This document shows positions 13,199 through 63,147 of a stretch of DNA of 64,000 nt, one piece after another. The notes below the pieces were generated by a model. The model had not been told where the DNA came from. It was given only the letters and a program-made list of their open reading frames with translations, and searched no databases. The position numbers and the translations under genes were made by a program. Origin of the DNA: Phytoactinopolyspora halotolerans (GTDB lineage Bacteria > Actinomycetota > Actinomycetes > Jiangellales > Jiangellaceae); assembly GCF_010550675.1 (NCBI RefSeq), contig NZ_JAAGOA010000011.1, forward strand, positions 62,001-126,000. The letters are read 5' to 3'. Each line of letters opens with the position of its first letter. The stretch's first letter is position 1.

Positions 13199-13690
13199 TC
13201 ATGCCGCGGAGCGGTAATGCTCGGGCGCGGCGGCGGAGCCGGGCGAATCGGTGGAACCGGGCGCCCCGCTCGTGCCGTCCGTGCCGTCCGTGCCGTCCGC
13301 GCCGTCCGGCCCGGCCGCTCGGTCGGGCCTGTCGGCTCCGTCGGCCTTCCGCGCGGTCACCGACATCGCGTGCCAGGTGAGGGCCAGTTCGTGCACGGTG
13401 GCGGCGTCGGCGATGCCGTCGCTGCGCAACTCCCGTTCGCGCTGGAACTCCGCCAGCGCGCGCAGCGTGTGCGGGTTGGTGGTGCCCGTGGCGTGCCGGG
13501 GCTCAAGCCGGCCGATCTCGACCAGGATGCGCTGGACGGACAGCGGATCCGCGGCCGGCGGACTGCTCAGCTGTCGCCATGCGTCGCCGACGGTGCGGTG
13601 GTAGCGGGACAGGACTCGCGCCGCGCGCCGTAGCCAGGTCGTGGCCGGCTGCTGCGTGGTGGGAGAGGCGGCCGTCGCGTAGGTGGCCAT
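13199..13690 (-). CDS. Unknown protein with Gly/Asp/Thr-rich tail
   Basis: A 163-residue product I do not recognise. The first ~110 residues are alpha-helical in character (WLRRAARVLSRYH, PLSVQRILVEIGRL, LRALAEFQRERELRSDG). From about residue 123 it turns into a low-complexity run of GAD, GTD and GTS units encoded by short imperfect tandem repeats (13272-13310), reminiscent of a collagen-like or flexible linker. Start ATG 13690 is supported by AGGAGG five nt upstream; an upstream in-frame ATG lacks a site. No signal peptide or membrane segment is visible. Confidence 0.6.
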   Translation of the reverse strand: MATYATAASPTTQQPATTWLRRAARVLSRYHRTVGDAWRQLSSPPAADPLSVQRILVEIGRLEPRHATGTTNPHTLRALAEFQRERELRSDGIADAATVHELALTWHAMSVTARKADGADRPDRAAGPDGADGTDGTDGTSGAPGSTDSPGSAAAPEHYRSAA

Positions 13691-13860
13691 GGTGTCCTCC
13701 TGCTGGATTGTGCGGACACTATCCAGACTGCCCGGGATCGGCCCGTCCATGCGTCTGCCCGGGGGATGTTTCGGTGCCTGGGCAGATCCACCTGCGCGCT
13801 GACGTCATCCCGTGGTGCGTCATCCCGTGGGTGGACCTCAGACGGGTCAGCCGAGCCACT

Positions 13861-13917
13861 CCCATGATCATGAACAGTAACCGTGCTATGTGAACGGCTA
13901 CTGTTCATGATCATGGG
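13861..13917. repeat. 55-bp dispersed palindrome, copy 1
   Basis: Arms 13861-13884 and 13894-13917 pair at 23 of 24 positions around a 9-nt loop; the arms contain CATGATCATGAAC. It sits directly 3' of the GerMN lipoprotein gene and can terminate that operon. The reverse complement is nearly identical, loop included, to the element at 44037-44089. Confidence 0.8.
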
Positions 13918-13923
13918 AGGCGG

Positions 13924-14451
13924 TCAGCCGAGAACCGGACACGACCTTTCCTCCGGGCCGGTGTCGGTGAGACTCACCACCACCTCGACTCGGTCGAGGT
14001 CCCGCCCCGAGGCCGCGATGACGCCCATGGCCGTGCACACGATCTGATCGATGCCCTCGGGACTGATATCGCCGCTCATGAACGGCAACCGAATGGTCAC
14101 GTGTTCGCCTGCGTCGACGATGCTCGGGCTGACGGTGGTGTCGGGGATCTCGGTGTGCAGGCCGTCGCCGACCTCTGGCGGGGAGGTGCCGTACATCAGC
14201 AGCTGAACCGCTCCCAGGACGGTACCCAGGCGGCCGGTGTCGCGCTGGCTCGGCGTCGGCGTCCCGTCGTCGTCGAGGAAGAACACCGTGGTCCCTTCGG
14301 CGAGCCCGGTCGGCGCTTCACCGGCGTACTGGACCTCGCTCGGGCTCACCCCGCACCCGCCGAACAGGAGCGCGGCCGCCGTCAGGAGCAGCGCCGCCCG
14401 CCCTCGGATCGTTGGATGCCGTGCCTGCGACGGGCCGCTACCGTCTGCCAT
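13924..14451 (-). CDS. GerMN-domain lipoprotein, partner of the adjacent two-component system
   Basis: A 175-residue secreted lipoprotein: a basic N-terminus, hydrophobic segment (AALLLTAAALLFGG) and lipobox Cys in FGGCGVS, then a GerMN-like domain (residues ~50-170: TTVFFLDDDG, LGTVLGAVQLLMYG, VTIRLPF, IVCTAMG). The start ATG 14451 is set by AGGAGG five nt upstream and overlaps the kinase 3' end, so translation is coupled. Response regulator, kinase and GerMN lipoprotein in one operon resembles mtrA-mtrB-lpqB in miniature, suggesting that it modulates the sensor at the outer membrane face. Confidence 0.75.
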   Translation of the reverse strand: MADGSGPSQARHPTIRGRAALLLTAAALLFGGCGVSPSEVQYAGEAPTGLAEGTTVFFLDDDGTPTPSQRDTGRLGTVLGAVQLLMYGTSPPEVGDGLHTEIPDTTVSPSIVDAGEHVTIRLPFMSGDISPEGIDQIVCTAMGVIAASGRDLDRVEVVVSLTDTGPEERSCPVLG

Positions 14452-15916
14452 CGTCCCCTCCTGGATGTCCATCCGCCGCCGGATCCGGTGGGGGAGGTGC
14501 GGGCGGCGGATCGTCGTCGTCGAGCCGGCGCGGCAGACGCAGCGTGAACTGTGCGCCGGCTCCCTCGGTGTTACACGCCGTCAGGTCACCGCCGTGCAGC
14601 CGTGCGTTGGCCAGGGCGATCGACAGACCGAGGCCGCTGCCGTCGGATGTGGACCGGGATGCGTCCGACTTGTAGAACCGGGCGAACAGCGCGTCGGGAC
14701 CCACGTCGTCGGGAATGCCGGGGCCGTGGTCGGTCACGATGACGACGATGTCGTCGCCATCCACCTGGACGTCGACGATCACCGGTGGACGGCCGTGCCG
14801 GAGCGCGTTCCCGACGATGTTGCCGACGGCGACGTCCAACCTGCGCACGTCCACCCGGGCGAGGACTGGGGCGTGCGTCCTCAGCTCGACGCCGTCGTCG
14901 AACGCGCGCAGCTGGAGGGAATCGGCGACGACGCGAGCGACGTCGACCATCTCCGGCCGGAGCTGGGCGGCCCCGGCGTCCAAACGGGAGATCTCCAGCA
15001 GGTCTTCGGCCAGGCGCGCCAGCTTCTGGGTCTGGCCGACGGCCATGGCCGCCATCTGTGCATCGTCCGGCGATCGGCTGCGCGCGTCCGCCTCCAGCAT
15101 CTCCATCAGCGACGTCAACGCCATGATGGGCGTACGCAGCTCGTGGGACACGTCTCCGGCGAAGCGGCGTGCGTCGGCCTCGCGGCGCTGCAGTTCGCCG
15201 ACCGAGCGTTCCAGCTCCGCCGCGGTGTGGTTGAACGTGGTCGCCAGATCTGCCAGCTCGTCCCGCCCGGTCGGCGACAGACGGGTGCTCAGGTCCCCGT
15301 GCGCGAGCTGGTTCGCGCTGTCCCGGAGCCCCCGTATCGGACGCAGAACGCTTCGGGAGATCAGCAGGGCCAGAGCGATGGCGAGGGGGAGCGCGCCGGC
15401 GATGGTCAATCCGACCACTCGCGTCCACTGGTCCAGCTGATCTTGCAGGCGCTGCAGGTCCTGGATGACGTAGACGTCGACGCCCGACTCGCTCCGCGTG
15501 CCGTCGAGCCCGGTCAGCGTCATGGACGTGCCCATCACCAGCTTGGGGCCGGAATCGTCGACGACGCGCTGGACGGCGAAACCGTCCCCGGTTGCGACCG
15601 CGGCACGCAGCTCGTCGCTCACGAGTCCGAGTGCGCTGCCGGCGGATGCGCTCATCCCGTCGAACGTGACCAGCGCGTCGTCGCCGATCGACCTGCGCAA
15701 CCGGTCGAGAGCCTGCTGGTCCGGCGGGTACGTCACATCCGGGGCCAGTTGGGTGAGCTGGTCGCGGAGCGAGTCGGTCGCGCGCTGCTGCGACTCCTCG
15801 ATCAGCGAGCCCCGTGCGACGACGTAGCCGGCGCCTGACGCGGCCGTGGCGGCCGCCATCGCGACCACGACGAACGCCACGATCACCCGGGTACGCAGGC
15901 CACCTGGCCAGCGCAT
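14438..15916 (-). CDS. Membrane sensor histidine kinase
   Basis: A 492-residue classical sensor: TM1 (residues 11-32), an extracytoplasmic domain of about 130 residues, TM2 (about 166-187), HAMP (190-240), dimerisation box with phospho-acceptor His258 (FAGDVSHELRTP), N box (IVGNALRHG), G1 (DHGPGIPDD) and G2 (GSGLGLSIALANA). The acidic proline-rich tail overlaps the lipoprotein gene by 14 nt. Start ATG 15916 is chosen because GGAG lies about 5 nt upstream; ATG 15934 is also in frame. The signal is unknown; the lipoprotein and deacetylase neighbours point to the cell envelope. Confidence 0.9.
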   Translation of the reverse strand: MRWPGGLRTRVIVAFVVVAMAAATAASGAGYVVARGSLIEESQQRATDSLRDQLTQLAPDVTYPPDQQALDRLRRSIGDDALVTFDGMSASAGSALGLVSDELRAAVATGDGFAVQRVVDDSGPKLVMGTSMTLTGLDGTRSESGVDVYVIQDLQRLQDQLDQWTRVVGLTIAGALPLAIALALLISRSVLRPIRGLRDSANQLAHGDLSTRLSPTGRDELADLATTFNHTAAELERSVGELQRREADARRFAGDVSHELRTPIMALTSLMEMLEADARSRSPDDAQMAAMAVGQTQKLARLAEDLLEISRLDAGAAQLRPEMVDVARVVADSLQLRAFDDGVELRTHAPVLARVDVRRLDVAVGNIVGNALRHGRPPVIVDVQVDGDDIVVIVTDHGPGIPDDVGPDALFARFYKSDASRSTSDGSGLGLSIALANARLHGGDLTACNTEGAGAQFTLRLPRRLDDDDPPPAPPPPDPAADGHPGGDDGRR

Positions 15917-19356: not shown

Positions 19357-19791
19357 ATGGTGAGCACCGATCAACCGTCTCCATCGCGTTCCGGGCTTCC
19401 GGCGACCGGGCCGGGCTCGCCGGCGACGTGGGGCCGCCGCTTCGCGGCCCTGATGATCGACTGGGTGTTGGCGAACATCGCGGCGCTGATCCTGGTCGGG
19501 GGAGAGGCGTGGGAGGTCGGCTCCAGCATGACCTGGGTCCCTCTCGTGTGCTGGTTCGGCATGGTGTGGCTGAGCACGGCCTTCACCGGGGCCAGCATGG
19601 GCCAGTGGATGCTGGGTGTTCGTATCGTCCGAGTCGCCGGTGGTCGGGTGGGCGTCTTGAACGCCGCGTTGCGCACCGCGCTGATCCTGCTGGTGATCCC
19701 GCCGATCGTCGCCGACAAGGACCGCCGCGGTCTGCACGATCTGGCCGCCAACACGGCCGCCGTCAACGGCCCACACCGAACGCCTAAATGA
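19357..19791 (+). CDS. RDD-family membrane protein
   Basis: A 144-residue protein with the RDD fold: a proline-rich N-tail, then WGRRFAALMIDWVLANIAAL (the Arg-Asp pair in the first helix), a second helix (MTWVPLVCWFGMVWLSTAF), the GQWMLGVRIVRVAGG motif and a last helix ending DRRGLHDLAANT. In actinomycetes such genes commonly sit between glnA and the lipA region. Function is not established; some RDD proteins act in ion exchange. The stop codon lies inside the arm of a 37-bp hairpin. Confidence 0.85.
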   Translation: MVSTDQPSPSRSGLPATGPGSPATWGRRFAALMIDWVLANIAALILVGGEAWEVGSSMTWVPLVCWFGMVWLSTAFTGASMGQWMLGVRIVRVAGGRVGVLNAALRTALILLVIPPIVADKDRRGLHDLAANTAAVNGPHRTPK

Positions 19792-19876
19792 TCATGTGAA
19801 GTAGGCTTTCTCGTGCCCTACCATGCCTGCAGACCTGTCAGGGCACGAGAAAACCTACTTCACATGATCATTTAGG
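19783..19876. terminator. Very long convergent hairpin (37-bp stem)
   Basis: Arms 19783-19819 and 19840-19876 pair at 36 of 37 positions around a 20-nt loop. The left arm contains the RDD stop codon, and the right arm ends 11 nt before the stop of the opposite gene. The core ATGATCATG is shared with the 55-bp palindromes. The AAA/TTT flanks allow termination in both directions. Confidence 0.85.
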
Positions 19877-25603: not shown

Positions 25604-27412
25604 CTACAGTCCGAGCTCTCCCTCGAACTGGCCCTCCTCCAAGCGCTGCTTCACCGCGCTGAGGTAACGGGCAGCATCCGCACCGTCGATGATCCGGTGG
25701 TCGTAGGAGAGCGCCAGGTAGACCATCGACCGGATCGCGATGTTGTCCGCGCCGGTGTCATCGGTGACGACGACGGGCCGCTTGACCACGGCACCGGTGC
25801 CGAGCATGCCGACCTGGGGCTGGTTCAGGATCGGCGTGTCGAACAGCGCACCGCGGCTGCCGGTGTTGGTGAGCGTGAAGGTGCCCCCGGCGATGTCGTC
25901 CGGCTTCAGTTTGTTGGTGCGCGTCCGCTCCGCCAGGTCGGCGATCTGCCGCGCCAGGCCACCGATGTTGAGATCGCCGGCGTTCTTCACCACCGGCACC
26001 ATCAGCCCGCGCTCGGTGTCGACGGCGATGCCCAGGTTCTCCGTGTCGTGGTAGACGATCTCGTCGCCGTCGACGCTGGCGTTGACGATCGGGTACACCT
26101 TGAGCGCCTCGACGGCGGCCTTCGCGAAGAACGGCAGGAAGGAGAGCTTCACGCCCTCGCGCGCCTGGAAGTCCTTCTTCGCCCGGTCACGCAGCCGCGC
26201 GATGCGGGTGATGTCCACCTCGATGACCGTGGTCAGCTGCGCGGACGTGGCCAGGGAGTTGACCATGTGCTCGGCGATCGCCTTGCGGATCCGGCTCATC
26301 TTCTGCCGGGTGCCACGCAGCGGCGACGGCTCGACGGGCGAGGGTGCACCGGCCGATGGGGCCTCGGCGGCGGGCGCGGCCGGAGCCTGCTCAGCGGCCT
26401 TGGCAGCCTCGGCGGCGGCCAGCACGTCCTGCTTACGGATGCGGCCGCCAACGCCGGAGCCCGTGACGGTCGAGAGATCGACGCCGTGTTCGGCGGCGAG
26501 CTTGCGCACCAGCGGCGTGACGTACGGTGCTCCGTCTCCGGACGGTGCGGCTGCCGACGGCTGCTGGGCTGCCTGCGGCGGTTGCTGCTCCGACGCTGCG
26601 GGGGCGCGTTCAGGCTGGGGGGTCGGTGTCTGCTCCGCGGCGGGGGCCTGCGGCTGCGGGGCCTGCTGCTGGGGCTCCTGAGCCTGCTGCGGAGCTTCTT
26701 GCTGGGGCTCCTGGGCCTGTTGCGGGGCCTGCTGCTGGGGTTCGGGTTCGGCGGCGGGTGCGGCGCCTTCTTCGCCGATGATGGCCAGCTCTGCGCCGAC
26801 CTCGACGGTCTCGTCCTCGCCGACCTTGATCTCTTGCAGGACGCCGGCGACGGGGGAGGGGATCTCGGTGTCGACCTTGTCGGTGGAGATCTCCAGCAGT
26901 GGCTCGTCGACGGCCACCTGGTCGCCGGGCTGCTTGAGCCAGCGGGTCACTGTGCCCTCGGTGACGCTTTCCCCGAGTGCGGGCAACGTGACCGGCGTGC
27001 CACCGCCCGCGGGCGCCTGCTGCGAGGCTTGTTCCTGCGGCTGCGACTCTTCGGCCGGCGGCGGCGCGGACTCCGGCTGCGGCGGCGCTTCCGGTTCCGG
27101 AGCTTCTTGCTGGGGCTCCTGGGCCTGTTGCGGGGCCTGCTGCTGGGGTTCGGGTTCGGCGGCGGGTGCGGCGCCTTCTTCGCCGATGATGGCCAGCTCT
27201 GCGCCGACCTCGACGGTCTCGTCCTCGCCGACCTTGATCTCTTGCAGGACGCCGGCGACGGGGGAGGGGATCTCGGTGTCGACCTTGTCGGTGGAGATCT
27301 CCAGCAGTGGCTCGTCGACGGCCACCTGGTCGCCGGGCTGCTTGAGCCAGCGGGTCACTGTGCCCTCGGTGACGCTTTCCCCGAGTGCGGGCAAGGTGAC
27401 AGAGGTTGCCAT
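25604..27412 (-). CDS. sucB: Dihydrolipoamide succinyltransferase (E2), two lipoyl domains
   Basis: Core acyltransferase of a 2-oxoacid dehydrogenase complex, most likely 2-oxoglutarate dehydrogenase. The 602 residues comprise lipoyl domain 1 (Lys43 in STDKVDTE), a Gln/Pro/Glu/Ala linker, an identical lipoyl domain 2 (Lys179), a second linker, the E1/E3-binding domain (~297-337, [16 protein letters not shown]) and the catalytic domain with His572 and Asp576 (SYDHRIIDG). The two lipoyl regions are identical over 297 bp of DNA. GAGAGG precedes ATG 27412. lpd lies just upstream on the same strand (148-nt gap), forming an E3-E2 pair fed by lipA/lipB. Branched-chain E2 is the alternative assignment. 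Confidence 0.92.
26690..26986. repeat. 297-bp perfect direct repeat in sucB, copy A (lipoyl domain 2)
   Basis: Identical base for base to 27098-27394 (offset 408 = 136 codons), covering lipoyl domain 2 and part of the linker. Differences resume immediately on both sides. Confidence 0.95.
27098..27394. repeat. 297-bp perfect direct repeat in sucB, copy B (lipoyl domain 1)
   Basis: Second member of the repeat, covering lipoyl domain 1 and the same part of its linker. Silent sites are also identical, which indicates recent duplication or ongoing gene conversion. Confidence 0.95.
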
Positions 27413-29219: not shown

Positions 29220-29543
29220 ATGCGGTGGTTCGGCCGGCGACGCAAGAGCGCTGAAGGCAGCTTGGACAGGGCCGCCGACGACGCCGACATCAAGCATCTC
29301 AAGGAATTCGCCAGCTCTCGGCACGGTGTCGAGGCGTTCGTCGAGCCGCCGACCACCATGACCGCCACCACCGTGGTGTTCGTCGCCCATGACGGCGAGT
29401 GGACCCGCCGACGGGTGAAGGACGCGGCCGCTGCCCACGATCTGGCCCGCAAGCTCGGCATACCGGCATACGACGCCCAGGTGGTCGGCTACCCGCAACG
29501 GATGCGGGAGTGGAACCGCAAGACCGGGGGGCGCGGGGTGTGA
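29220..29543 (+). CDS. Small conserved actinobacterial protein of unknown function
   Basis: A 107-residue protein beginning RWFGRRRKSAEG with no membrane segment. The centre (TTMTATTVVFVAHDGEWTRRRV) looks like a beta hairpin, followed by a helix (DAAAAHDLARKLG) and YDAQVVGYPQRMREWN. I recognise it only as a conserved gene found beside lpd/pepA in actinomycetes. GGAAGG (29207-29212) best fits ATG 29220; GTG 29214 and ATG 29217 are also in frame. It ends at a palindromic terminator. Confidence 0.65.
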   Translation: MRWFGRRRKSAEGSLDRAADDADIKHLKEFASSRHGVEAFVEPPTTMTATTVVFVAHDGEWTRRRVKDAAAAHDLARKLGIPAYDAQVVGYPQRMREWNRKTGGRGV

Positions 29544-29546
29544 CCA

Positions 29547-29572
29547 CCAGCTCGCCCGCGCGGGCGAGCTGG
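29547..29572. terminator. Perfect 26-nt palindrome, convergent terminator
   Basis: Two abutting 13-nt arms (CCAGCTCGCCCGC and its complement) lie between the small gene and pepA, which converge here. Confidence 0.7.
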
Positions 29573-29588
29573 CTGCGCTAGCGATCCG

Positions 29589-31091
29589 TCACAGGCGGCC
29601 TTCCGCGACGTCGTCGACGACCTGCACCAACGTGCGAACGGCGGCGCCGGTCCCGCCCTTCGGGGTGTAGCCGTACGGCTCCGCGTCGTTGAACGCCGGC
29701 CCGGCGATGTCCAGGTGCGCCCACGCGACGCCGTCCGGGACGAACTCCTGCAGGAACAGTCCTGCCTGCAACGCGCCACCGTTGCGGTCGCCCACGTTGG
29801 CGATGTCCGCGACCGCGGAGTCGAGCTTGCTCCGCAGCTCGGCGGGGAGCGGCAACGGCCACATCGCCTCACCCGCGCGCTCGGCGGCGTCGTGCACCTG
29901 GCCGGAGAGCTCGTCGTCGTTGGACATGATCCCGGAGACGCGAGGGCCGAGGGCGACGACGGCGGCGCCGGTCAGGGTGGCGACGTCGACGATCAGATCC
30001 GGCTCGTCGTCGGCCGACCGTACCAGCGCGTCGGCCAGCACGAGACGGCCTTCGGCATCGGTGTTGAGCACCTCGACCGTTTTGCCGCCGTAGATGGTGA
30101 TGACATCGGAGGGGCGCTGCGCGTCACCGGACGGCATGTTCTCGGCCATGGCGGCGTACGCCGTGACCGCCACCCGCGGCGCGAGCTCCGCCACCGCCAG
30201 CACCGCGGCGACCACGGCGGCCGCACCGCCCATGTCGCACTTCATGGTCGCCATGCTGTCCGACGGCTTGAGCGAGAGCCCGCCGCTGTCGAAGGTGATG
30301 CCCTTGCCGACCAGGACGACGTGCTTCTTCGCCCGGGTGGGCCGGTAGCTCAACCGGACCAGCCGCGGTGGGTTGGCCGAGCCCTGCCCGACCCCGATCA
30401 GACCGCCGTAGCCGCCCTTGGCCAGCGCCTTCTCATCGAGCACCTCGACGTTGAGCTTCGCGGCCTTGCCGAGCTTGGAGCTGATCTCGGCGAACACCTT
30501 CGGGGACAGGTCGCGTGGCGGCATGTTCACCCAGTCGCGGGCGCGGTTGACGGCGGTGGCCACCGCCTCGGCGCGAGTCACCGCATCCTTGGCGGCCTTG
30601 GCCTTGACGCCGGGGCCGACCAGCGTCGCGGATTCGAGCGGTTCCTTGGCGGTGTCGGACTTGTACTCGTCGAAGGAGTACGCGCCGAGCAGAACACCCT
30701 CGGCGACCGCCGCCGCCTCGTCCTCACCGTCCACCGGTAGCGCGAACGCCGCGCTCTTGATTCCGCCGAGGGCCCGCGCCGCGGCTCCGGCCGCACGTCG
30801 GATCTCCTCCCGGCGAGCCGGCGTACCGGCCGCACCCGGCGAGCCGACGCCGACGGCGACCACGACCGGGGCCTTCACCTTGCCCATGGTCGGGAGCTTG
30901 ATCACCTCGTCGGCCTTGCCGGTGGCGCCCAGTTGTCTCAGTGTCTCCGCCAGCGTGCCCTTGAAAGCCTTGTCGACAGACTCTGCGCCGGCCAGCAGGC
31001 CCGGCCCGTCATCGCCACTGGTGGTGCCGATGACGACGGCGTCGACCTTGAGCCCGGTGGGATTGGCTGAGGACAAGGTGATGGCAGTCAC
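29589..31091 (-). CDS. pepA: Leucyl aminopeptidase (M17)
   Basis: Cytosolic two-metal aminopeptidase. The 500-residue protein has the variable N-domain and the catalytic domain with LVGKGITFDSGGLSLKP (metal-binding Lys/Asp), DMGGAAAVVAA, the family signature NTDAEGRLVLADAL, and a C-terminal helix. Start GTG 31091 is selected by AGGAG about 5 nt upstream; the frame stays open further but without family similarity. It is transcribed divergently from the VOC-protein gene. Confidence 0.95.
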   Translation of the reverse strand: MTAITLSSANPTGLKVDAVVIGTTSGDDGPGLLAGAESVDKAFKGTLAETLRQLGATGKADEVIKLPTMGKVKAPVVVAVGVGSPGAAGTPARREEIRRAAGAAARALGGIKSAAFALPVDGEDEAAAVAEGVLLGAYSFDEYKSDTAKEPLESATLVGPGVKAKAAKDAVTRAEAVATAVNRARDWVNMPPRDLSPKVFAEISSKLGKAAKLNVEVLDEKALAKGGYGGLIGVGQGSANPPRLVRLSYRPTRAKKHVVLVGKGITFDSGGLSLKPSDSMATMKCDMGGAAAVVAAVLAVAELAPRVAVTAYAAMAENMPSGDAQRPSDVITIYGGKTVEVLNTDAEGRLVLADALVRSADDEPDLIVDVATLTGAAVVALGPRVSGIMSNDDELSGQVHDAAERAGEAMWPLPLPAELRSKLDSAVADIANVGDRNGGALQAGLFLQEFVPDGVAWAHLDIAGPAFNDAEPYGYTPKGGTGAAVRTLVQVVDDVAEGRL

Positions 31092-43117: not shown

Positions 43118-44002
43118 TTAACCGAACGGCACGGACGGCACATATGGAACCGGCGGCCGCATGTGTCGTAATGCGAGACAGCCGTCCATCTCGACTCGCA
43201 GACCTGCGGCAAGGCCGACGTCGAGCGCCCACTCCTGGTCAGATGTGAGATAGCGCACGGTGACCTCTTCTCCGGGTGGTGTCTGGGCGAGCGCCGCCCA
43301 CAGCAGCCGCTGCGCGATCGAGCGGTTGGTCGCGGCCAGCAGCGCGATCGCGGAACCGTCGAGATAGGCGTAGCCCGAGCCGGTGAACAGGTCGCACACC
43401 AGCAGCTGCCCGTATCGTGTCATGAAGGCGTGGTCCGGGCGATGAGTGGCGCCGCGCACCTGCCGGTCCACGGAGTCGACAAGGTCGAGATCTCTGTCCG
43501 TGGCCGCCCGGACGCCGTCGATCTCCGGGATGACATGGTGATCGACAGTGCCGACGAGCTTGAACGCCGGATACAAGGAGAAGCCGGCGCCGCGGTAACG
43601 GCGCAGCGCCGCCGGGTTGGGCAGCGCGCACAGCATGCCGCGCAGGCAGCCGTGGCCGTAGTCGATCGCCGCCTCCAGCAGAGCCGTGCCGGCGCCTTCG
43701 CGCTGGCGGTCCGGATCGACCGCATAGGTGGACAGCACCCAGAGCAGATCGCGGCGCAGCGCCGCGGCGACACCGAACACGCCGTCGTCGTCGGCCGCCA
43801 CCCAGCACCCCGCCGGATCCACCGCGAGCATATGCCGGAGCCGGTCCATCCAACGTTCCCGAGCCAGCGGCGCGCGTCCGGCAGGCGACGAGTTGGGCGC
43901 ACCGGACGAGCCGGACGCGGACGGCGTGGGGAGCGCGAAGGCGCGCGCGGTGATGCGTTCCGCGGCGGCGACGTCGTCGGCTCGCATCGGCCGAATCCGC
44001 AT
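43118..44002 (-). CDS. Tandem-GNAT acetyltransferase
   Basis: A 294-residue protein with an N-terminal GNAT domain (MRIRPMRADDVAAAERITARAF, TYAVDPDRQREGAGTALLEAAI, RYRGAGFSLYPAF) and a degenerate second GNAT-like half (DGVRAATDRDLDLVDSV, SGYAYLDGSAIALLAATN). A Ser/Ala/Pro-rich insertion (residues 26-46) is unusual. Substrate unknown. Divergent from the glycerate kinase gene, with a palindromic repeat between. Confidence 0.85.
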   Translation of the reverse strand: MRIRPMRADDVAAAERITARAFALPTPSASGSSGAPNSSPAGRAPLARERWMDRLRHMLAVDPAGCWVAADDDGVFGVAAALRRDLLWVLSTYAVDPDRQREGAGTALLEAAIDYGHGCLRGMLCALPNPAALRRYRGAGFSLYPAFKLVGTVDHHVIPEIDGVRAATDRDLDLVDSVDRQVRGATHRPDHAFMTRYGQLLVCDLFTGSGYAYLDGSAIALLAATNRSIAQRLLWAALAQTPPGEEVTVRYLTSDQEWALDVGLAAGLRVEMDGCLALRHMRPPVPYVPSVPFG

Positions 44003-44036: not shown

Positions 44037-44089
44037 CATGATCATGAACGATAACCGTTCACATGGCACGGTTACCGTTCATGATCATG
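44037..44089. repeat. 55-bp dispersed palindrome, copy 2
   Basis: Arms 44037-44058 and 44068-44089 pair at 21 of 22 positions around loop TCACATGGC. Inverted copy of the element at 13861-13917 (5 differences in 55 nt). This copy lies between divergent genes, not at a 3' end. Confidence 0.8.
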
Positions 44090-44114: not shown

Positions 44115-45242
44115 ATGCGCATCCTTGTTGCTCCAGACAAGTTCGCTGGGACGTTGACGGCGGTTGAAGCGGCCGAGGCGATCGCCGACGGTTGGCGACG
44201 CACGTCGCCGGAGGCAGAGGTGGTGCCGATACCGATGGCGGACGGCGGTCCCGGGTTTGTGGACGTCCTGCATGCCAGTCTGGGCGGTGAGCTGCTCGCC
44301 GGCTCGGTGTCCGGCCCGCTTGCCGAGCCCGTTCCGGCGACCTTCCTCCTGGTCGAGGATGTCGCCTATATCGAGTCGGCGCAGGCCTGCGGGCTGGCCC
44401 TGATGCCGCTGGGACCGGATGGGCGTACGCCGGAGCCGGGGGCGGTGAACCGTGCGTCCACCTATGGAGTCGGTCAGCTCATCGGCTCGGCGGTGCAGTC
44501 CGGCGCGCGGCGAGTGGTCATCGGCCTCGGTGGCTCGGGTACGAACGACGGCGGGGCGGGGCTGCTTGCGGCCCTGGGTGCGACGTCGGAACCAGCCGGG
44601 GCATTGACCCGAGGACCGGACGGGCTGGCGGAGCTCACCTCCGTGGACCTCGGACCAGCGCTCGAGCGACTGGCCGGGGTCGAGCTGGTCGCCGCATCCG
44701 ACGTCGACAACCCGTTGCTCGGGCTACGTGGCGCGTCGAATGTGTTCGGTGCGCAGAAAGGGCTGGTCGACGAGGACGCCAGACTGGCCGCGGACGCCGC
44801 GCTCAGCAGACTCGCCGAGGCGGTCGAGCGGAAGACGGCTGAGGCGGCCGGCGCGGGTGCGGCGGGTGGCCTCGGATACGCCCTGCTCGTCCTCGGCGGA
44901 CGCCGGGAGCCGGGATTCGCCACCGTGGCGAGCGCGGTCGGCCTGTCCGACCTGGTAACGGCGTCCGACCTGGTCATCACCGGCGAGGGCAAACTCGACT
45001 GGCAGTCGATGAACGGCAAGGTTCCGGTGGGCGTGGCTGGGGTGGCGAACGCCGCTCTGCGGCCGTGCATCGCCCTCGCCGGTGCGGTACAGGTGGGCAA
45101 CCGTGAACTCCGCGCCAACGGCATCGAGGCCGCGTACTCGCTGGTGGACATCGTGGGGGAGGAACAGGCATTCGCCCAGCCCGCGCAGAGCCTGGCCGCG
45201 GTCGCCGCGCGCGTGGCCAAGACGTGGGGAAGGGCACGGTGA
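44115..45242 (+). CDS. Glycerate kinase (GarK/GlxK type)
   Basis: A 375-residue glycerate 2-kinase-type enzyme: MRILVAPDKFAGTLTAVEAA, PMADGGPGFVDVL, STYGVGQLIGSAVQSG, GLGGSGTNDGGAG, ASDVDNPLLG, and ITGEGKLDWQSMNGKVP. It channels glycerate into glycolysis, for example from glyoxylate or serine breakdown. No Shine-Dalgarno directly precedes ATG 44115; a TATCTG hexamer lies about 13 nt upstream. Confidence 0.93.
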   Translation: MRILVAPDKFAGTLTAVEAAEAIADGWRRTSPEAEVVPIPMADGGPGFVDVLHASLGGELLAGSVSGPLAEPVPATFLLVEDVAYIESAQACGLALMPLGPDGRTPEPGAVNRASTYGVGQLIGSAVQSGARRVVIGLGGSGTNDGGAGLLAALGATSEPAGALTRGPDGLAELTSVDLGPALERLAGVELVAASDVDNPLLGLRGASNVFGAQKGLVDEDARLAADAALSRLAEAVERKTAEAAGAGAAGGLGYALLVLGGRREPGFATVASAVGLSDLVTASDLVITGEGKLDWQSMNGKVPVGVAGVANAALRPCIALAGAVQVGNRELRANGIEAAYSLVDIVGEEQAFAQPAQSLAAVAARVAKTWGRAR

Positions 45243-62703: not shown

Positions 62704-62811
62704 GGGGCCGGAGAATTCTCCTCGCTCTCACGCGATCGGCGGGCAGCACGATCAGTCTGGTTGCGTGGTCTGCCGCCGATCGAAGATCGCTCGGAGAAGG
62801 TTCTCCGCCCC
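62704..62811. repeat. ~107-bp palindromic element, copy A
   Basis: Outer arms GGGGC.GGAGAA (62704-62715) pair with 62799-62811; inner arms 62733-62746 pair with 62770-62782. Two blocks (62721-62742, 22 nt; 62767-62793, 27 nt) are identical to copy B in reverse complement. Confidence 0.8.
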
Positions 62812-62973
62812 TCGTCCGTGCGTTGCGGTTCCGGTCTCGGACTGGGTGATATCGGCCACGGACACAGCCGCAGTTGCGCTGATCTCGACCGCTTGAACCG
62901 GCTCGAGCGTGCGCACGACGTCGATCGGCAGCGACGTACACCGCTGCCGCCGCGGAGTTCCTGGGGCGAGGCC

Positions 62974-63045
62974 AAGGCGAGAAGGCCATCGGACCGACCG
63001 AGGCGAGAAGGCGATCGGACCGACCGAGGCGAGGAAACGATGGGG
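62974..63045. repeat. 26-bp tandem repeat (2.7 copies)
   Basis: Units 62974-62999 and 63000-63025 differ at two of 26 positions (core GGCGAGAAGGC); a diverged partial unit follows and runs into copy B of the palindromic element. Confidence 0.85.
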
Positions 63046-63147
63046 CCGGGGAGATTCGTCGAGCGATCTTCGATCGGCGGCAGACCAACGCAGCCCGTCC
63101 GCGAACCGTCCGCCGATCGCGTGAGAGCGAGACGAACTCCCCGGCCC
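63042..63147. repeat. ~107-bp palindromic element, copy B (inverted)
   Basis: Outer arms 63042-63060 and 63131-63147 pair over 17 bp with one bulge; inner arms 63071-63079 pair with 63111-63119. The outer arms differ in sequence from copy A yet still pair. Confidence 0.8.

Follow-up and report, generated by a model that had tools for sequence, protein, structure and literature searches.

The window, i.e. the whole stretch of 64,000 nucleotides of the Phytoactinopolyspora halotolerans genome (G000; 7.30 Mb in 65 contigs) analysed here, contains two copies of a short palindrome, termed here family A, and a longer hairpin, termed family B. Copy 1 lies just past the stop codon of a gene, and copy 2 lies between the starts of two divergent genes. 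The features are as follows.

13199..13750, minus strand: the next downstream gene, 183 aa, with a peptidoglycan-binding domain, 112 bp from copy 1
13863..13915, minus strand (assigned because the loop reads TCACATAGC on it; as a palindrome the element is symmetrical): copy 1 of the family A hairpin, with a core of 53 nt
13865..13870, no strand: TGATCA sequence, left foot of copy 1
13908..13913, no strand: TGATCA sequence, right foot of copy 1
13916..13923, no strand: gap of 8 bp that separates copy 1 from the stop codon of the minus-strand gene at 13924-14472
13924..14472, minus strand: gene of 182 aa without Pfam match, its 3' end facing copy 1
19783..19876, no strand: 94-bp hairpin of family B, CCTAAATGATCATG...CATGATCATTTAGG, flanked by convergent genes
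43118..44002, minus strand: GNAT acetyltransferase gene, its start to the left of copy 2 (placed at 43987 by the codon-usage caller)
44037..44089, plus strand: family A hairpin copy 2, 53-nt core, with the loop TCACATGGC on this strand
44039..44044, no strand: TGATCA sequence, left foot of copy 2
44082..44087, no strand: TGATCA sequence, right foot of copy 2
44115..45242, plus strand: glycerate kinase gene, its start to the right of copy 2

The two copies are one 55-nt sequence in inverse orientation (50 of 55 positions equal, 91% complementary), with cores at 13863-13915 and 44037-44089 and a common 9-nt loop, TCACAT(A/G)GC, which reads TCACATAGC in copy 1 and TCACATGGC in copy 2; all this agrees with a sequence-only reading made earlier. 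The same reading had taken a paired change from A-T to G-C as the mark of a maintained repeat. The change is real at core pair 14/40 (A-T in copy 1, G-C in copy 2, with loci L005 and L006 aligned in one orientation), but pair 15/39, G-C in copy 1, is broken in copy 2 (A.C), and at pair 18/36 the G.T of copy 1 corresponds to A-T in copy 2. A single paired change in two copies, with another pair broken, is insufficient by itself to claim that a repeat is maintained. The RNA folding z-scores of the four strands of both copies are -9.46, -11.51, -6.31 and -8.43, none of 200 shuffles folds as well as any of these strands, and the family A arm matches the window four times, compared to none in 100 shuffles. 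A terminator scan of positions 13700-14100 of the window found none, and there is no Rfam match at gathering thresholds within the window; 13 of the 14 sub-threshold Rfam matches of copy 1 are microRNA hairpin models.

Analysis of whole genomes reveals that family A is dispersed and abundant. A genome-wide count, proposed by the sequence-only reading, yielded 108 copies in G000 (both arms, at most three mismatches) and none for the reversed control, while a loop-specific pattern gave 104 matches; 102 of the 108 copies are readable in full, and one false regex match (L085:9920) was removed before all counts. Over 60 genomes the two-arm pattern occurs, besides G000, 38 times in Phytoactinopolyspora endophytica (G002) and 27 times in G005, with no match in the other 57. 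The element is thus neither confined to the two copies in the window nor missing from relatives. The arms (CATGATCATGAAC) are near-invariant and AT-rich, with a GC content of 0.43 as compared to 0.68 in the genome pieces read. Exact paired arms, searched by their ends only, number 93 in G003, 46 in G001 and 133 in G005 (control: 0), and the arm TGATCATGAAC, counted on both strands, is found 238 times in G000, 117 in G001, 90 in G002, 191 in G003, 7 in G004 and 312 in G005, and at most 11 times in each of the remaining 16 of the 22 family genomes; this search revealed that two further species of the genus carry the element with a different interior. Among 393 actinomycete genomes, paired arms match only in G000-G003, G005 and G008 (one pair). 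We take Phytoactinopolyspora to be a member of the family Jiangellaceae. A Jiangella genome paper places the genus close to Jiangella. Copy 1 has no match among 72,556 plasmid and 50,697 phage records, and the exact arm pattern has none in viral contigs; a looser pattern, TGATCATG, picks up at least 120 stretches, of which 3 of the 80 checked form a hairpin. On these grounds carriage by phages or plasmids was rejected.

Comparison of the copies indicates that the pairing of the stem is upheld, though not at every position. In the 22-pair hairpin, the 98 distinct copies from G000 exhibit 72 cells with double-sided changes, against a mean of 38.4 and a maximum of 50 in 500 shuffles, a figure that is not a count of events, because related copies share changes by descent; 92.8% of the cells are paired, compared to 90.4% after shuffling. 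In a set of 53 sequences, comprising 49 of the 102 copies from G000 (six of them hand-picked after their stems had been seen) and four from P. endophytica, there are 43 double-sided cells against 22.0 in shuffles; sliding the partner strand, a control that applies to this set alone, leaves 1-6. Preference is given to the count from all G000 copies, which involved no selection. Pair 15/39 is Watson-Crick in 79 of the 102 copies (46.3 expected), and pairs 17/37 and 18/36 in 61 and 60, respectively (50.6 expected for each). The stems of other species, which are mostly paired throughout, are independent support for pairing. The proposal of a maintained, dispersed, REP-like repeat is thus supported by the number of copies, by covariation and by the presence of copies in relatives. 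Tandem copies, read in the sense of transcription, contain 857 Watson-Crick cells, 16 G-U, 16 A-C and 57 others; G-U, a pair tolerated in RNA only, is no commoner than A-C, hence nothing here suggests that selection acts on the RNA instead of the DNA. Neither this result nor the Rfam search bears out the alternative proposal of a structured RNA.

The genomic neighborhood of family A was analysed with genes from a simple codon-usage caller. With the exception of four copies inside ORFs, all of the 102 copies (i.e. 98) are intergenic: convergent genes flank 41 of them, tandem genes 43 and divergent genes 14 (including copy 2). In the background, the 373 intergenic gaps that measure 55 bp or more in these pieces of the genome, the corresponding numbers are 58, 200 and 115. 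Stop codons that face an element are close to it (118 of 125 at most 57 bp away), and 56 of the 125 are located inside it, 42 of them as TGA at bases 3-5; start-side distances are broad. The last 5 nt before the hairpin are rich in C and poor in G both on stop sides (n=125; C 0.62, G 0.11) and on start sides (n=71; C 0.58, G 0.12). This approach extends over ~30-40 nt on both sides and falls to background level by ~45 nt, whereas the composition of control gene ends (n=613) is flat. Flank bases pair no better than their composition alone gives. As for the earlier statement that the hairpin is something other than a chance terminator, chance can indeed be set aside, but the copies do occupy terminator positions. 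No U-tract follows the hairpin (at least 5 T in 8 nt: 0 of 204 tails). A target duplication was sought as direct repeats of 2-9 bp flanking the element, but these do not go beyond the spread seen in 300 shuffles; if a duplication were concealed by the palindromic CATG/TGATCA feet, it would be indistinguishable from them. Insertion into a pre-existing terminator stem was rejected: at each of 25 offsets, at least one of 500 shuffles gives as much flank pairing as observed. Folding energy sets element junctions apart from other gene junctions only in part, since DNA of high GC content folds well in any case.

The four copies inside ORFs (L108:6090-6142, L029:1501-1553, L017:1501-1553 and L002:1501-1553) all use the one stop-free frame, reading (S/P)(M/V)IMN(S/T)NR...SVHDH, and the one in L002 is close to the end of its ORF. 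The L108 copy resides in a glycolate-oxidase-like gene, which has an in-frame copy with a different stem in P. endophytica too (L191). More distant homologs align over it without a gap, so that insertion and replacement are indistinguishable in this case.

Among the copies listed, the ends are the same in all species, but the stem is particular to each species and largely uniform within it, e.g. ACTTTGCCGTGC-YATR-GCACGGCAAAGT in G003 and ACTAGTTGACC-ATATT-GGTCAACTAGT in G001, with a usual foot-to-foot length of 50 bp in G003 and 49 bp in G000 and G001. At 15 sites common to G000 and P. endophytica, several of which were matched via a gene neighbor at unequal distances, the copies differ at 6.93 positions on average, against 6.96 with the partners shuffled, and the loop is inverted at seven of the 15. 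Copies at a shared site are thus no more alike than random pairs, i.e. as sequences they retain no memory of orthology. Among matched gene 3' ends, an element is present in both G000 and P. endophytica at 13, in G000 only at 6, in the relative only at 2, and in neither at 58; the corresponding numbers are 1, 6, 2 and 31 for G003, and 1, 3, 2 and 28 for G001. These rates, like the shares of the families, are biased, since the pieces of G000-G003 were chosen around family A copies. The reciprocal best matches come from partial genomes. At one convergent junction (window 29543-29589) G000 has a GC-rich palindrome and G001 a family A element; nothing similar to that palindrome was found at the other empty sites compared. 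Within that junction, positions 29547-29572 of the window form a perfect palindrome, CCAGCTCGCCCGCGCGGGCGAGCTGG.

The pieces read also contain other intergenic palindromes, family B and further ones of ~50-58 bp, that have a quite different interior and TGATCA(T) feet. Of the intergenic palindromes outside family A, 41 of 154 in G000-G003 and 5 of 25 in G010 and G004 together carry TGATCA at mirror places, compared to 4 and 1, respectively, for the next palindromic hexamer. The pattern TGATCAT-N(22-52)-ATGATCA is found 161 times in G000, 51-214 times in the other four Phytoactinopolyspora genomes and at least once in all 22 family genomes. Outside the family at least seven matches are present in 19 of 371 genomes; the reversed control has none in Phytoactinopolyspora, the family or these 19 genomes. 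Most of the matches listed from G026, G050, G077, G092, G101, G114, G168, G179 and G256 represent species-specific hairpins; in many of the genomes with 1-5 matches, by contrast, there are only chance matches that form no hairpin. Fifteen of 18 loci checked pair at 13 or more of the 17 outer positions. To judge from these sequences, TGATCA-footed hairpins occur in several actinomycete families. Non-A TGATCA hairpins of G000-G004, G050, G168 and G256 also have the C-rich approach, which is weak (G001, G003) or missing around palindromes other than TGATCA hairpins, with too few flanks for this test among the G010 TGATCA hairpins and the other palindromes of G256. Thirty flanks from further genomes exhibit a weaker approach (C 0.45, G 0.19 at 3-8 nt), and 20 of 21 stop-side distances in G168, G050 and G256 are at most 60 bp. 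Family B is present in 63 copies in G000, 27 in G001 and 8 in G004, with none in the other 19 of the 22 family genomes. Its copies carry species-specific segments beside TGATCATGT, and in several of the 11 copies read the first 9 bases include TAA or TGA as a stop codon.

Family A shares features with several known systems. MITEs are short, non-coding, dispersed elements with inverted-repeat ends, and family A resembles them in all these respects and in having a few copies in frame in ORFs; it differs in that the whole unit is palindromic with a species-specific stem and no target duplication was detected. Visual inspection of the proteins encoded between neighboring copies (21 close pairs) brought no parent element to light; these proteins look ordinary, and no transposase is apparent among them. 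Palindromic elements of Rickettsia can lie in frame inside genes, as do four of the 102 family A copies, but the other 98 are intergenic and mostly at gene ends. Like intrinsic terminators, family A forms a stable hairpin just past stop codons and is common between convergent genes; unlike them, it lacks the U-tract (in all 204 tails), and its arms are AT-rich and near-invariant over ~100 sites. REPs of the GTAG and CGTC super-families are described, in the part of the survey cited here, as short high-copy palindromes found mainly outside genes, past the ends of coding sequences, which are particular to a species and comprise several families per genome, and that part names no Actinobacteria among the hosts of either super-family (PMC3733652, Di Nocera et al. 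2013). Family A agrees with them in being a short, high-copy, dispersed, extragenic and species-specific palindrome at gene ends, with several families per genome. It departs from them in its longer stem (~20-22 pairs) and in having symmetrical TGATCA feet instead of a tag: near the 5' foot GTAG occurs in 1, GTGG in 0 and CGTC in 10 of the 102 copies. REPINs/BIMEs and REPtrons with TnpAREP, as far as the cited portion of PMC6006769 describes them, likewise comprise inverted, hairpin-forming units dispersed between genes; family A is instead a single ~50-bp hairpin with no guide tetranucleotide and with no tnpAREP in the 22 family genomes. The REP-associated tyrosine transposase suggested by the sequence-only reading did not come to light: a search for Pfam Y1_Tnp (PF01797), positive in 5 of 14 control genomes, gave no match in any of the 22 family genomes, and a RAYT/IS200 mobilizer was rejected on this ground. 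Family A works like REP but is not a tagged, RAYT-linked REP. In the open-access full-text literature we found no paper on TGATCA-footed repeats, and the cited parts of PMC5292007, PMC8355165 and PMC3364876 make no mention of them.

As an explanation of these findings we propose, at roughly even odds, that the REP-like family A, one of a broader set of TGATCA-footed hairpins of actinomycetes, is a gene-end module, which is spread and overwritten by a copying process. The module would be symmetrical: a transcript from either side would enter an unstructured C-rich stretch, often with a stop codon at the foot, and then a hairpin of ~20 pairs, which may end transcription or protect the new mRNA 3' end. 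Because there is no U-tract, factor-dependent termination of the Rho type or 3' trimming to the hairpin would be likelier than classical intrinsic termination. A C-rich, G-poor stretch ahead of a pause hairpin is a known trait of Rho-dependent terminators. The C-rich approach, the stop codon and the hairpin fit what would be expected of a bidirectional end signal. Copies would be gained, lost and overwritten by a process that acts on the TGATCA-footed hairpin and is presumably not driven by a Y1 transposase. In favor of a gene-end module combined with copying are the 108 copies against none in the control, the excess between convergent genes, the proximity to stop codons, the covariation, the two-sided C-rich approach and the species-specific stems; copying and turnover are further suggested by shared-site copies being as different as shuffled ones and by the G001 element opposite the GC-rich palindrome. 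Against the module speak the copies between divergent genes and inside ORFs, the lack of a G-U preference and the missing U-tracts, against a sense-strand terminator the C-rich approach that is equal on start sides, where it is not needed, and against the copying process the failure to find an enzyme that might carry it out.

Three of these observations favor a role at the DNA level or selfish spread: the skew is as strong on start sides, some copies lie between divergent genes, and G-U pairs are not preferred. Family A could be purely selfish, non-autonomous mobile DNA, with an enzyme that recognizes TGATCA-footed hairpins, a gene-end bias that results from selection against insertions elsewhere and the C-to-G switch as the preferred target; we consider this possible but doubtful. 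It would account for the patchy presence among relatives, with gain and loss at orthologous gene ends, for several families with the same feet in one genome, for the in-frame copies in four ORFs and for a C-rich approach independent of gene direction. However, no target duplication exceeds the shuffle range (even though palindromic feet could hide one), no transposase is apparent by eye between close copies, and 56 of 125 genes use stop codons inside the element. Moreover, the flanks at shared sites, in the examples seen, have diverged yet are still C-rich and G-rich, which speaks for upkeep. Alternatively, the palindromes may be protein-binding or chromosome-organizing sites, in which a dimer sits on the palindromic TGATCA feet ~44 bp apart, with the stem serving as a spacer between them and the location at gene ends keeping the sites out of coding DNA. 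The feet are indeed self-complementary and nearly invariant while the stem drifts, and the same 49-50 bp spacing is seen in more than one family and species, but elsewhere the spacing is 37, 45-59 or 82 bp, and a spacer needs no self-complementary stem, yet the stem of every dialect is paired; we regard this explanation as unlikely. A third alternative, which we find very unlikely, is mutational upkeep only, where template switching between the arms during replication corrects the palindromes and flips the loops, so that paired changes arise without function. The inverted loops at seven of 15 shared sites and the absence of an RNA-type G-U preference agree with it, but pairs 17/37 and 18/36 deviate from Watson-Crick in 41 and 42 of the 102 copies, which implies that correction is inefficient, and it explains neither dialects common to many sites nor the location at gene ends. 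In Neisseria and Pasteurellaceae, DNA uptake sequences occur as inverted pairs at gene ends and are also abundant singly. An uptake function, suggested by the species dialects and the inverted pairs at gene ends, is hardly credible and was rejected already for the near absence of single arms, since nearly all arms are paired (in G003, 191 arms make 93 exact pairs) and the pieces read contain four lone arms, three of them in coding DNA.

Returning to the gene-end module with copying, we tentatively suggest, as a less probable extension, that it represents a new class of bacterial repeats present in several actinomycete families, which combines a C-rich approach, a TGATCA foot that gives a stop from either side and a freely re-written, self-complementary stem, with non-HUH copying of one stem over sites within a species while feet, approach and location stay fixed. 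What has been learned about REPs comes from systems with tagged hairpins and a Y1 (RAYT) transposase, and the genomes analysed here possess comparable hairpins with neither. Several families per genome have in common one 6-bp foot and the flanking composition, and their stems are altered in place. It thus becomes possible to test how transcripts are ended without U-tracts in high-GC actinomycetes, and what can keep 50-bp repeats alike at a hundred sites apart from each other. The combination of TGATCA feet, a paired stem and a C-to-G switch is a simple finder for other actinomycete genomes.

Other repeats were observed in the same material. Dispersed palindromes with TGATCG feet (GGTGATCGTCAGT..., GTGATCGTTGCC...) have 9-10 members per species in the pieces read, e.g. 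at L214, L215, L217 and L221 in G001 and at L178, L179, L182 and L184 in G003. A family of ~50-bp palindromes without TGATCA, GATGGGATGCG...CGCATCCCATC, has three members in the G000 pieces (L133:1385, L090:7296 and L117:8183). The window itself also contains two 300-nt direct repeats, 95% identical and 408 bp apart (26645-27352), and nested inverted repeats of 46 and 38 nt, with 230 and 367 nt between the arms (62705-63147).
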